Assembly (NCBI GenBank): GCA_029251405.1
Contig: JAQXDK010000017.1
Coordinates: 1-53,687, forward strand
Direction: 5' to 3'
Length of the DNA: 53,687 nucleotides
From: Flavobacteriales bacterium
GTDB lineage: Bacteria; Bacteroidota; Bacteroidia; Flavobacteriales_D; Parvicellaceae
Both the position numbers and the translations under genes were made by a program. Below, in pieces: positions 29,223 to 33,991 of the stretch. Under the pieces are notes generated by a model, which was not told the DNA's origin, did not search any database, and saw nothing but the letters and a program-made list of their open reading frames with translations. Numbering within the stretch: position 1 is the stretch's first letter; each line of letters opens with the position of its first letter.

Positions 29223-31874
29223 TTAAAATCTTGCTACCAATTTAAGATTTAATCTTCTTGTAGTTAAAAAACTTGGTATGGAATATTGTCTTCCACTAAC
29301 GTCTCTAATCCAGGTGTAATTGGTTGTATTAGAAATGTCAAGTAAATTAAAAACTTCAAAAGCTATCCATAGGGATTTTATCTTCTTTAATACAGATTTT
29401 TCGTCAAATTCTGATTTATTGGTTTCGTTGTTAATAAGATCTTTTGAAAACCCAATATCCACTCTTTTGTAAAAATTAGATCTAAGAGTATCAGAGTATC
29501 TTTGATTTCCTGGTGGGCCGTAGGGAAGTCTAGATCCAATTAGTATGTTAATATTAACTTTCATATTGCTCCATTTTATTTTTTCAGTATCCCATTCGTC
29601 TGGCATTTGATCTTGAAAAAACATAGAAAAAGACAATCTTTGGTCAGTTGGTCTTGGTATAAATCCAGGTTCGTAACGAATGCTATCGCTTCTGTTCTGA
29701 TCGATGGTAAATCCAGGTATAATTTTTTCACCACCTTGATTAAAATATTCGTAGTAAAAGTCATTTGAAATATCTTCTTTTGTTTGAAGCCAGCTCAATG
29801 AAGCGTAAGATTGTATCCCTTTAACAAATTCACCATTTATTTTTAAATCTACTCCTCTTGCAAATCCAGAAGCTAAATTGTCGCCATAGTAATTAACTCT
29901 TACATTTTCAATCTCATATGGAATGATGTCTTCTAAAAATTTATAATAAATCTCACTTCCCAATTTAAATTTTCTATCCCACATATTGAAAATAAAATCT
30001 CCACCTGCTACAATATGAATGGATTTTTGTGCTCTAATCATTGGATTTAATTCTCCGTTTAAAAACCTTGCAGCACGGTAAAAAGGAGGTTGATAATAAT
30101 ATCCACTTGCGAGTCTTAGAGTAATGTTTTTTCTTATTAATTGATTGTTTTCTAACTTATAGAATGCAGGCCTCCATTTTAGATTAATTCTTGGAGAAAG
30201 CACGTTTTGATTGTTGTAAGTCCAATAATGAGATCTAACACCAATTGTTGCAGTGAAATAATTCATTGATGAAAATGTTGTGTCAAAAGTTGTTAAACTG
30301 TCAATGGTAAATTTTAGATGTATAATTTTTTCACTATTAAATTTGAATCTGTGTTGAATGAAGGCGGTTACACGAGAAGAGTTAATGTTGTTATTAGCTT
30401 TAATAAATTTACTTAAATGCAATTCTTGATACGGAATATTGTTCGAATTTTGATATCCAACGCTGTCCAAAACACGCGGAGTGTTGAATCTTGCAGAATC
30501 TAAATAGTTCCATTCTTTTATAGTATTATTGACACTCTCAGATTGTAATTTTAATCCCCAGTTAGTTTTATTTTTTCCAGTATTAAAACTCCCCTTATGA
30601 TAAAGATTAATAACATTTGCCCGCAATTCATTTCTTGCATGATTTAAAAATGCACCAACTCCTCTATTATAAGCAACATCTCCGTATTGGCTACTACTTA
30701 AATCGCGTTCTAATTCGTCCAATCTATACTCTCCTAGTAAATCAAAATACTCAGTTTCATTGGTGTTGAAAGTTGAAATAAAATAATTTAACGATAGTTT
30801 TTCTGTTGTTTGGTGTTGAAGCGACAATGCACCCATGTAAGTTTTGTATTGTGTATTTTCCTGACCTTCGTAGTAAACTGTAAATCTTAAAGCTTCGTTA
30901 ATGCTTCCAAAATTTGTTTCTCTATTTTCTGGTTTAACGGAAAATAAATTATTGGCTGCTGTTCCAAAAACAGTAAATTTTAATTTTTCTGTTAAATTGA
31001 AATTCATAATACCTTGAATATCGGTAAAACTAGGTTTGTACTCTCCTTTGGTATCTAAGGCTCCAAGCAAGTAAGCATTGGTCCGATGTCTAAATCCAAC
31101 ATTGTAATTAAATAATGAGCTTGGTCTATCTCCAAACTGTAATTGTGCACCTAAAAGACTGGTAGAAATATGGGCTTCAAAAGTTTCGGGTTCTCTGTAA
31201 GAAATGTCTAAAACACTAGATAGTTTATCTCCATACTTAGCATCAAATCCGCCTGCAGAGAATAAAATATTATCAATCATGGCAGGGTTAATAAAACTGA
31301 GTCCTTCTTGTTGACCAGACCTGGCTAAAAAAGGTCTGTAAACTTCGATGCCGTTTACATAAATTAAATTTTCATCAAAATTACCTCCTCTAACACTAAA
31401 TCCGCTTGATAATTCATTGTTTTGACGTACTCCAAATCCAACAGATGAAAGTAAACCTTCTATGTTACCACTTGGTAAAGCAATATTTGCTGCATTTATA
31501 GTTGGTAGTATTTCGGTGGGGGAGCTCCCCGGATCTACATACTCAACATCCAGTGTTTTTAATACTTTATTTCGCATTTTAATATTAATGAGAGTGTCCT
31601 TATTAATATTTATTGTTTTAGATATTTTTTTAAAGTTTACGTGAGATATAACAATTTTAATTCTACCATTTTCAATAGTATTTAAATGAAACTCTCCTTT
31701 TTTATTGGAGGATGTTCCAGTTGATTTCCCCAGAATTCTTATGTTGGCATTGTCAATTGCTGAACCGTTAGAAGAAGTTATTGTACCACTAATTTTAGTG
31801 CTTTCCTGTCCTTGATAAGTTAAGGAAACCAAAAAAAATAAAAAAAGGAAACGGTATTTTTTAAACGGTATCAT
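29223..31874 (-). CDS. TonB-dependent outer membrane receptor
   Basis: The 883-residue protein has a signal peptide (PFKKYRFLFLFFLVSLTYQG). A carboxypeptidase-regulatory-like domain (~25-105) is followed by a plug domain (~110-235) with GLLSSVGFGVRQNNELSSGF, RGGNFDENLIYVNGIEVYRP and GGFDAKYGDKLSSVLDISY. A 22-strand barrel then ends RRLNLKLVARF with the terminal aromatic residue. Such receptors take up metal chelates or other ligands using TonB energy. Its start overlaps the stop of the upstream exported protein gene by four bases (ATGA), and the gene two upstream encodes a ZIP metal transporter. A metal substrate is therefore a reasonable inference, not a demonstrated one. Confidence 0.93.
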   Translation of the reverse strand: MIPFKKYRFLFLFFLVSLTYQGQESTKISGTITSSNGSAIDNANIRILGKSTGTSSNKKGEFHLNTIENGRIKIVISHVNFKKISKTININKDTLINIKMRNKVLKTLDVEYVDPGSSPTEILPTINAANIALPSGNIEGLLSSVGFGVRQNNELSSGFSVRGGNFDENLIYVNGIEVYRPFLARSGQQEGLSFINPAMIDNILFSAGGFDAKYGDKLSSVLDISYREPETFEAHISTSLLGAQLQFGDRPSSLFNYNVGFRHRTNAYLLGALDTKGEYKPSFTDIQGIMNFNLTEKLKFTVFGTAANNLFSVKPENRETNFGSINEALRFTVYYEGQENTQYKTYMGALSLQHQTTEKLSLNYFISTFNTNETEYFDLLGEYRLDELERDLSSSQYGDVAYNRGVGAFLNHARNELRANVINLYHKGSFNTGKNKTNWGLKLQSESVNNTIKEWNYLDSARFNTPRVLDSVGYQNSNNIPYQELHLSKFIKANNNINSSRVTAFIQHRFKFNSEKIIHLKFTIDSLTTFDTTFSSMNYFTATIGVRSHYWTYNNQNVLSPRINLKWRPAFYKLENNQLIRKNITLRLASGYYYQPPFYRAARFLNGELNPMIRAQKSIHIVAGGDFIFNMWDRKFKLGSEIYYKFLEDIIPYEIENVRVNYYGDNLASGFARGVDLKINGEFVKGIQSYASLSWLQTKEDISNDFYYEYFNQGGEKIIPGFTIDQNRSDSIRYEPGFIPRPTDQRLSFSMFFQDQMPDEWDTEKIKWSNMKVNINILIGSRLPYGPPGNQRYSDTLRSNFYKRVDIGFSKDLINNETNKSEFDEKSVLKKIKSLWIAFEVFNLLDISNTTNYTWIRDVSGRQYSIPSFLTTRRLNLKLVARF

Positions 31875-32518
31875 TTATTATTTTTGAAATCTCCTCTTTT
31901 CCAAGCTTTAATAAATTGGGACCAAGCAACTGGATTTAACAAGCTAATTGGTGCATATTGTCCAGCATAATACAATTTACTTTGAATTTGTTGTTGTTGC
32001 CATTTAAAGTTCAGAGCACCATCCATTGGGGTAAATTGCATCCTTTCATTTAATTTTTCTCTTTCTAAATTATTCATAGCTCTTTTGTAATCGTCATTAG
32101 GAATTGGTGTTTCTACAAATGCTTTTGCAAACTGCTCCCTAGATGGCCAAGGATATATAACGGCAGCTTTTAACATAATAGTATCTTCGTACATTATTTG
32201 AATTAAGGAGTATTTATTTGTTGTAAGTGTATCTGGAATGGTAAAATAGGACTTTTTATATCCAACACTACTAAACACGATTGTATCTCCTTTTTCGGCT
32301 ACAAAAGAGAAATATCCAAAATAATCAGAAATAGTCCCTCGATTTGATTCCTTATTTATAACACTGCAATAGGGGACTGGTAATAAGCTGTCTTGAGATA
32401 CTATTACTCCACTAAATTGTATATAGCTTTCATCTTTCTGAGCTGTAATTTTTAAACTAATTAAAATTAGAAAAGAAATAAAGATAAGATTATGATATGT
32501 ATTTTTCGGGTGTTTGAT
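31871..32518 (-). CDS. Exported carboxypeptidase-regulatory-like domain protein with apparent ATC start
   Basis: The frame is open from the TGA at 31871 up to a TAA at 32534-32536. It encodes a signal peptide (KNTYHNLIFISFLILISLK, then ITAQ), a complete carboxypeptidase-regulatory-like beta sandwich (QFSGVIVSQDSLLPVPYCSV through TIVFSSVGYKKSYFTIP) and a ~110-residue helical/beta tail ending FKNNK. There is no ATG, GTG or TTG before the signal peptide. The best start is ATC at 32518, one base after the ZIP gene's TAA, giving 215 residues. A GTG at 32278 would delete the signal peptide and half the domain, so I reject it. Either ATC is used by termination-reinitiation, or the base at 32516 is a mutation or sequence error (ATG to ATC). 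It is co-transcribed with the TonB receptor downstream. Confidence 0.78.
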   Translation of the reverse strand: MKHPKNTYHNLIFISFLILISLKITAQKDESYIQFSGVIVSQDSLLPVPYCSVINKESNRGTISDYFGYFSFVAEKGDTIVFSSVGYKKSYFTIPDTLTTNKYSLIQIMYEDTIMLKAAVIYPWPSREQFAKAFVETPIPNDDYKRAMNNLEREKLNERMQFTPMDGALNFKWQQQQIQSKLYYAGQYAPISLLNPVAWSQFIKAWKRGDFKNNK

Positions 32519-32519
32519 G

Positions 32520-33251
32520 TTAAAAACTAAAAATTAAAATACCAGTAATAATTCCTCCAAAAATGGTTAATAAATTTTTAAATTTTCCAGAAGAACCATG
32601 ATGATCTTCAAATATTAATAAAGTGGTGATATGTAATAACATACCTGTTGAAATTGCCAAAAAATTATTGGACCATTCGCTGAAAAAACTACTTTCAACT
32701 AAGTATTCTCCAAAAAAGGCTCCTGAAGGACTAGAAATAGCGAATAATAGCAAAAAAATTATTTTTCTTTTAAAACTAGAATTGATACTGTTTAAAAAAA
32801 TGATAAGTACAGCAGCAATTGGCAATTTATGTATCAAAATTGCTGTTAGATAAACCCAAGAAAAAGAATCAAAACTTGTTACGTGACTATGATTTAAATC
32901 TTCGAGAGTATTTACAGGTATTCCTTCGATAAATGAGTGTATGGATAGACCAATGAATATTACAAAAAGCTCTTTACTAGAAATCTTACCATGAATATGA
33001 ACATGTCCATGTTCTATTCCTTTTGAAAGTAACTCCAAAAGTATTTGAAGAATAAATCCAATCAATAAAAAATATCCAAGACGATGGTTGTGCATGGAAA
33101 AAATCTCGGGTAATATATGGCTGCAAATCAGTGTTAAAACGATTGCTACACTAAAAGAAATAATAGATTGTTTGTACTTTTCTAACTTTGTAGAAACCAG
33201 CTCTGTTAATAACCCAGTAAATAATACCCCGAAAAATAAAACTGCTGTCAT
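32520..33251 (-). CDS. ZIP family metal transporter
   Basis: The 243-residue inner membrane protein has about eight membrane helices. A His-rich loop, IEHGHVHIHGK, lies between helices 3 and 4. The helix 4 metal-binding motif is HSFIEGIPVN, and the helix 5 motif is HKLPIAAVL. ZIP proteins import Zn2+ or other divalent metals into the cytosol. The start overlaps the methyltransferase stop by four bases. The downstream genes encode an exported carboxypeptidase-regulatory protein and a TonB receptor, so the operon could move a metal across both membranes. Metal specificity is not readable. Confidence 0.9.
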   Translation of the reverse strand: MTAVLFFGVLFTGLLTELVSTKLEKYKQSIISFSVAIVLTLICSHILPEIFSMHNHRLGYFLLIGFILQILLELLSKGIEHGHVHIHGKISSKELFVIFIGLSIHSFIEGIPVNTLEDLNHSHVTSFDSFSWVYLTAILIHKLPIAAVLIIFLNSINSSFKRKIIFLLLFAISSPSGAFFGEYLVESSFFSEWSNNFLAISTGMLLHITTLLIFEDHHGSSGKFKNLLTIFGGIITGILIFSF

Positions 33252-33991
33252 GTGTTAGTTTTTTTTGCAACTAAAATTAACCTGCTACTGCCTTCACTAT
33301 AGGAGTTCATGTTATAATCACCAAACGAAGATATGAGTTCAAACCCAGTTTTTTTAAACATTTCAATAAAATTATTTAAGTCAAATAATTGTACTTTTTC
33401 CTGGTAATTAAAAGCCTTCTCCCCATCTGTTATTTTTATTTTTTTTACAACGTAATTATCAATTATACTTTTATTTAATTCGAAATTAACATTGTCTATT
33501 GTTTTGGTTTCGTTTGAATTATTTATTGATTTTAAGATTTTTTTAGCATTTAGAAAATCTATGATTAATAAACCATCTTTTAGAAGGTGCTTATTGCATT
33601 GATTTAGAACTTTTAAATTATCGGATAAATTTTCAAAATATCCAAAACTTGTAAATAAGTTAAAAATATAACCATAGGATTTTCCCATTTCAAAATCACG
33701 CATATCTGAAATGTGAAAGTTTTGATTTGAAGATTTATTTTTATTGGCAAAATCAATACTTTCTTTAGAAATATCTATCCCTTCTAATGTTTTGAAAAAC
33801 TTACTTAAAGTGTTGGCATGTCTTCCTTTACCACAGCCAAGATCTAATACGTTTTTTTCAGGATCTAAAATTAAGTTATTTACCAATTGTTTTATAAAAT
33901 TATTGGCCTCTGCTTGACTTCTGTCTTTGTACAGGATGTGATAATATTTGGAATCAAACCAATTTATAAACCATTCATTTGTCTTGTTCAT
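33248..33991 (-). CDS. Class I SAM-dependent methyltransferase
   Basis: The 247-residue Rossmann-fold methyltransferase has motif I VLDLGCGKG at 48-56 and the acidic loop LEGIDISKESIDFA. FHISDMRDF follows (motif II region), then a post-I aromatic segment YIFNLFTSFGYFE. The substrate is unknown; small-molecule methyltransferases of this type are numerous. It is the first gene of the five-gene leftward operon and is preceded by a TAGATTTG promoter element. A four-base ATGA overlap joins it to the ZIP gene. Confidence 0.88.
   Translation of the reverse strand: MNKTNEWFINWFDSKYYHILYKDRSQAEANNFIKQLVNNLILDPEKNVLDLGCGKGRHANTLSKFFKTLEGIDISKESIDFANKNKSSNQNFHISDMRDFEMGKSYGYIFNLFTSFGYFENLSDNLKVLNQCNKHLLKDGLLIIDFLNAKKILKSINNSNETKTIDNVNFELNKSIIDNYVVKKIKITDGEKAFNYQEKVQLFDLNNFIEMFKKTGFELISSFGDYNMNSYSEGSSRLILVAKKTNT

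Follow-up and report, generated by a model that had tools for sequence, protein, structure and literature searches.

An exported-protein gene without a canonical start codon

How is a gene translated when no canonical start codon precedes its signal peptide? The question is raised by a gene in a 53,687-nt stretch of Flavobacteriales DNA (contig JAQXDK010000017.1 of assembly GCA_029251405.1), which was analyzed as a whole and is called the window below. The gene belongs to a set of four co-directional genes on the minus strand. The first encodes a methyltransferase (33248..33991) and overlaps the start of the second, which encodes a ZIP-family transporter (32520..33251; PF02535, E 6.4e-14). The third encodes an exported CarboxypepD_reg-like protein (31871..32518, 215 codons plus stop when counted from ATC), and its TGA is overlapped (ATGA) by the ATG at 31874 of the fourth, a TonB-dependent-receptor-like gene (29223..31874).

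The frame of the exported protein is open from TAA 32536-32534 to TGA 31873-31871 (31871-32533 of the window, minus strand). The initial annotation held that no ATG, GTG, or TTG lies between this TAA and the signal peptide and that an ATC stands one base behind the ZIP stop; direct reading confirmed both. Read along the minus strand, TTT TAA (32522-32520) closes the ZIP gene, a single C follows (32519), and then come ATC (32518-32516) and AAA CAC CCG AAA. This ATC, the proposed AUC start, is the first ATH codon past the in-frame stop and has an A at −3. Translation from it would yield a lysine-containing signal peptide, as annotated (IKHPKNTYHNLIFISFLILISLKITAQ, encoded by 32438..32518). The frame then remains without a canonical start until a GTG (32276..32278), the only downstream one considered. 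This GTG falls inside the CarboxypepD_reg-like domain (PF13715, E 1.2e-10, residues 36-120 from ATC), so that a start there would indeed cost the protein its signal peptide and the beginning of the domain. No RNA gene was found at the ZIP/exported-gene junction by Rfam and ARAGORN.

The canonical start is missing throughout the genus

The gene could be an ordinary one in which a sequencing or assembly error turned ATG into ATC at 32516. The initial annotation had allowed for this, or for a single base change, and had proposed looking for an ATG start in relatives. One base change would restore ATG, and the assembly is a draft of 53 contigs. However, our collection holds 11 genomes of the window's genus (marine Flavobacteriales, g1), and none of the nine that carry the full-length gene shows any of the three canonical codons before the signal peptide (0/9); the two others are 63% and 69% complete. 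Because the eight congeners lack a canonical start as well, and with differing codons (ATC, ATT, ATA), an error in this one genome can be discarded for practical purposes. L006 and L011 have one TTG each, near the end of the signal peptide.

Orthologues are present in 34/39 genomes of the family. Of the 61 distinct orthologues read outside the genus, 57 have ATG at the expected place; the remaining four, which belong to sister genus g3, have an aligned TTG. In the protein tree, the nine sequences of the genus form one clade (support 100/97), which points to a single origin of the non-ATG state. Judged from these comparisons, the missing start is an inherited, genus-wide feature.

We took a conserved AUH start (AUC, AUU, or AUA) to be recognizable by the lack of a canonical start upstream in several independent genomes, found here in 9/9 congeneric species, and by an AUH codon at the position homologous to the AUG of relatives. 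The latter was seen in six species (L006-L011), which read ATT AAA with the ATT exactly 30 codons before the domain, where g2, g4, and g5 have ATG. L009 and L011 read TAA AAA ATT AAA; the in-frame TAA two codons before the ATT leaves no room upstream, so the start is tightly bounded there. L005 reads ATC ATA AAA AAA, with ATA at −30. In the window and in L004, ATC lies at −33, one base past the ZIP stop (TAA-C-ATC and TAA-T-ATC, respectively). Which of the ATH codons applies is ambiguous for L004 and L005. The codon thus appears to vary within the genus between ATC, ATT, and, probably, ATA.

It should be noted that about 36% of shuffled versions of the stretch (38 AT-rich codons) also lacked ATG, GTG, and TTG. 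Bare absence in one genome therefore means little, and the weight of the argument lies in the signal-peptide coding and in the recurrence in 9/9 species.

Coding signals ahead of the internal GTG

When read from the ATH codon, all nine sequences begin with a positively charged, hydrophobic signal peptide. That of the window reaches a maximum Kyte-Doolittle mean of 3.10 over 12 residues and ends in ...LKITA-Q. None of 4000 shuffles was both open and as hydrophobic as the window stretch, and in the four species tested such shuffles numbered 0 to 23 of 4000. Among five close species, pN/pS was 0.04 for the mature part and 0.53 for the signal peptide; the signal-peptide stretch read in its two alternative frames gave 0.73 and 0.79, a modest contrast with 0.53. 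The mature part, including the codons before GTG 32278, is under strong purifying selection.

These data bear on the idea that translation begins internally, at the canonical GTG 32278, giving a shortened cytoplasmic protein, or that the gene is decaying. The ORF from this GTG is the one called when only ATG, GTG, and TTG count, yet the orthologues share no internal start, the signal peptide is open and hydrophobic across the genus, and the selection on the mature part extends upstream of the GTG. We regard a short product or a decaying gene as very improbable. Initiation at an AUH codon, AUC in the window, is the reading that we favor, with a probability of about 0.8.

The exported protein

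The predicted product consists of a signal peptide, a CarboxypepD_reg-like domain (PF13715, 41.7 bits, above the Pfam gathering score of 32.2), and a conserved C-terminal part; the mature protein could be aligned across 47 orthologues. In the predicted model, the first 80 residues (pLDDT about 90) form a transthyretin-like domain matching SusC NTE domains, and the remainder is modelled poorly. Identity with BamP was considered and rejected: the likeness is weak, scoring 31.6 bits, in the domain part only, against a cut-off of 230 bits for NCBIfam NF053692. A distant BamP-like role is possible. Superposition of the predicted model on chain 9n2d_E of the Flavobacterium johnsoniae BAM complex covered 178 columns with an rmsd of 22. 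Across Bacteroidota, the exported gene adjoins a receptor-like gene.

Position of the gene behind ZIP

ZIP lies directly upstream of the exported gene in 9/9 species of the genus, where the order is, head to tail, methyltransferase, ZIP, exported gene, and receptor gene. The distance from the ZIP stop to the ATH codon is 1, 1, 14, 18, 18, 19, 19, 22, and 33 nt in the nine species; each proposed start is thus at most 33 nt from a stop on the same strand, in keeping with the spacing looked for in termination-reinitiation (a few tens of nt). In g3, g4, and g5, about 1.1 kb separates ZIP from the exported gene and contains a reverse-strand gene for an exported protein (with a T9SS tail in L041), which is missing from this locus in the window's genus. 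The separated arrangement is the more widespread one, which suggests loss in the genus rather than gain elsewhere; loss of the intervening gene probably created the coupling to ZIP. The gene yebC had also been considered as the one lost, but this is wrong for g3-g5, whose intervening gene is the reverse-strand one; yebC sits elsewhere in the window's genus.

Such closeness might also reflect a fusion, with the exported protein made as an extension of ZIP through frameshifting or stop readthrough. The ZIP stop is in frame with the exported gene in L007, L008, and L010. Over the genus, however, its frame differs between species, with 0, 1, and 2 all represented, as neither a conserved frameshift nor readthrough would allow; L009 and L011 have an additional stop in the exported gene's own frame between the two, and a fusion would place the signal peptide internally. 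We consider the chance of a fusion next to nil.

An alternative that deserves more attention is that initiation at AUH is uncoupled from ZIP, taking place at an A/U-rich site without a Shine-Dalgarno sequence, the closeness of ZIP being incidental. Bacteroidota initiate at AUG in A/U-rich sites without Shine-Dalgarno sequences. In line with this, an A is found at −3 of the ATH codon in 8/9 species, and the spacing from ZIP ranges from 1 to 33 nt. Against it, the AUH state arises in the very genus in which the exported gene abuts ZIP. Other genes of the same genomes bear on both sides of the matter.

Other genes with apparent AUH starts

A survey comparing the window's genome (762 kb covered) with one congener (874 kb) took in 298 shared ORFs. 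The script flagged 30 of them, and four that lack a canonical start in both genomes remained after inspection by eye: the exported-protein gene, infC, a family 2 glycosyltransferase gene, and a fatty-acid desaturase paralogue. The genus thus has at least three further genes of this kind. The ORFs set aside lay antisense or had an ATG shortly after the beginning of a conserved leader. A survey between two g2 genomes, meant as a control, was uninformative as the two are too alike, so that the frequency of AUH starts seen in the survey refers to the window's genus.

In 30/30 family genomes, the infC gene (L180:18746-19307, minus strand) has ATC, ATT, or ATA between −16 and −19 codons, an almost constant position, and mostly 12-58 nt past the upstream stop; in the window's genus, the ATH codon stands just behind an AGGAGG-like stretch. 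The gene acts as a built-in positive control for initiation at AUH codons in this lineage, and a non-AUG start of infC is known (PMC5472188). The glycosyltransferase gene (L180:4492-5527; G000:C52:64493-65527; minus strand) has an apparent AUA start: where the 5' end is intact, the species of the genus all read ATA GAA (8/8). The g3 genomes have ATT (3/3), and the codon lies 2-5 nt behind the upstream stop in every case. Its g4 counterpart has a TAATG overlap with ATG and that of g5 a TTG 2 nt past the stop; in genera lacking this close junction, the start is ATG, GTG, or TTG. The desaturase paralogue (L179:9433-10513; G000:C52:49434-50513; plus strand) has the sequence ATT ATC TCA in this region. 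It lacks ATG, GTG, and TTG in 9/9 members of the genus and 3/3 of g4, and g3 and more distant genera have ATG. In the genus, its AUH codon lies about 55 nt from the upstream stop, which indicates that tight coupling is not always needed for an AUH start.

The spacings of infC and the desaturase gene (12-58 nt) thus fit uncoupled initiation, whereas the AUH codon of the glycosyltransferase gene accompanies close spacing. On balance, we find uncoupled initiation at the exported gene rather unlikely, and lean, with some reserve, towards its translation being dependent on that of ZIP.

A model of initiation in the wake of ZIP

We propose that AUC 32518-32516 is read by the ordinary initiator fMet-tRNA and that initiation is mainly by ribosomes that have only just finished translating ZIP, whose stop lies one base upstream. 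An altered initiator tRNA was rejected: three CAU tRNAs were found, and the initiator-like one has a normal CAU anticodon. Pairing of CAU with AUH would then leave a mismatch at the third position, and starts with such mismatches form the class repressed by IF3 (PMC5472188). In Escherichia coli, re-initiation works without a Shine-Dalgarno sequence across one base, as in a reporter on the M13 gV-gVII junction with its single intergenic C, and declines with distance to under 3% at 40 nt; extra IF3 lowers it about threefold (PMC2268962). At the 18-33 nt found in six congeners, re-initiation of the E. coli type would be weak, and independent initiation may contribute.

As for its history, the ancestor of the genus would have lost the divergent gene between ZIP and the exported gene, along with the promoter and leader of the latter. 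Translation of the exported gene would then have come to follow that of ZIP, and the ATG of the exported gene may have drifted to AUU, AUC, or AUA, a drift that we suggest was tolerated because ribosomes waiting at the site would depend less on a strong start codon. The expected output would be low, proportional to that of ZIP, and sensitive to IF3. Initiation at AUH itself, re-initiation, IF3 sensitivity, and the order of events are all inferred from sequence and gene order. The termination-reinitiation setting given for the ATC start in the initial annotation fits the comparative evidence, to which the present analysis adds the genus-wide state, the varying codon, the new adjacency of ZIP, and the further genes of the same kind. 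A word search of the F. johnsoniae profiling paper for non-AUG starts returned no match.

Implications and comparison with known systems

To our knowledge, non-canonical starts outside infC have rarely been shown to be conserved. That of the exported gene appears genus-wide and has a traceable origin, the intervening gene being gone from the locus and ATG replaced by ATT or ATC, and it has parallels in the same genomes, such as the glycosyltransferase gene. Gene finders restricted to ATG, GTG, and TTG will truncate or miss such genes, and the system offers a natural setting in which to ask whether start-codon identity is relaxed by re-initiation. More tentatively, at somewhat below even odds, AUH starts may be a standing part of gene expression in this genus: re-initiation would relax the choice of start, and genes brought up against an upstream stop would exchange AUG for AUU, AUC, or AUA. 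The output of such genes would stay low, in a constant proportion to that of the upstream gene, and be open to joint control by IF3.

Among known proteins, BamP of F. johnsoniae (PMC12611786) resembles the exported protein in being small and periplasmic, with a CarboxypepD-like domain followed by further segments, but the exported protein differs in lying below the NCBIfam cut-off. Among known starts, the AUU or AUC of infC is likewise a lineage-conserved AUH codon. The infC starts, however, are autoregulatory and old, whereas the AUH codon of the exported gene would have been gained in one genus, 1-33 nt behind an unrelated gene. Streptomyces sigR, with a GTC start repressed by IF3 (PMC5472188), is another lineage-conserved, non-canonical start outside infC that is prone to misannotation; its GTC was tested by experiment, and the AUH start of the exported gene is proposed here from sequence. 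In arrangement, the exported gene resembles M13 geneV-geneVII and other re-initiation junctions (PMC2268962), in which the downstream gene begins one C past the stop without a Shine-Dalgarno sequence, as in the window. These junctions use AUG, whereas the exported gene would use AUC, AUU, or AUA; the UAA-C-AUC of the window has the same geometry as the one-base re-initiation junction of E. coli.
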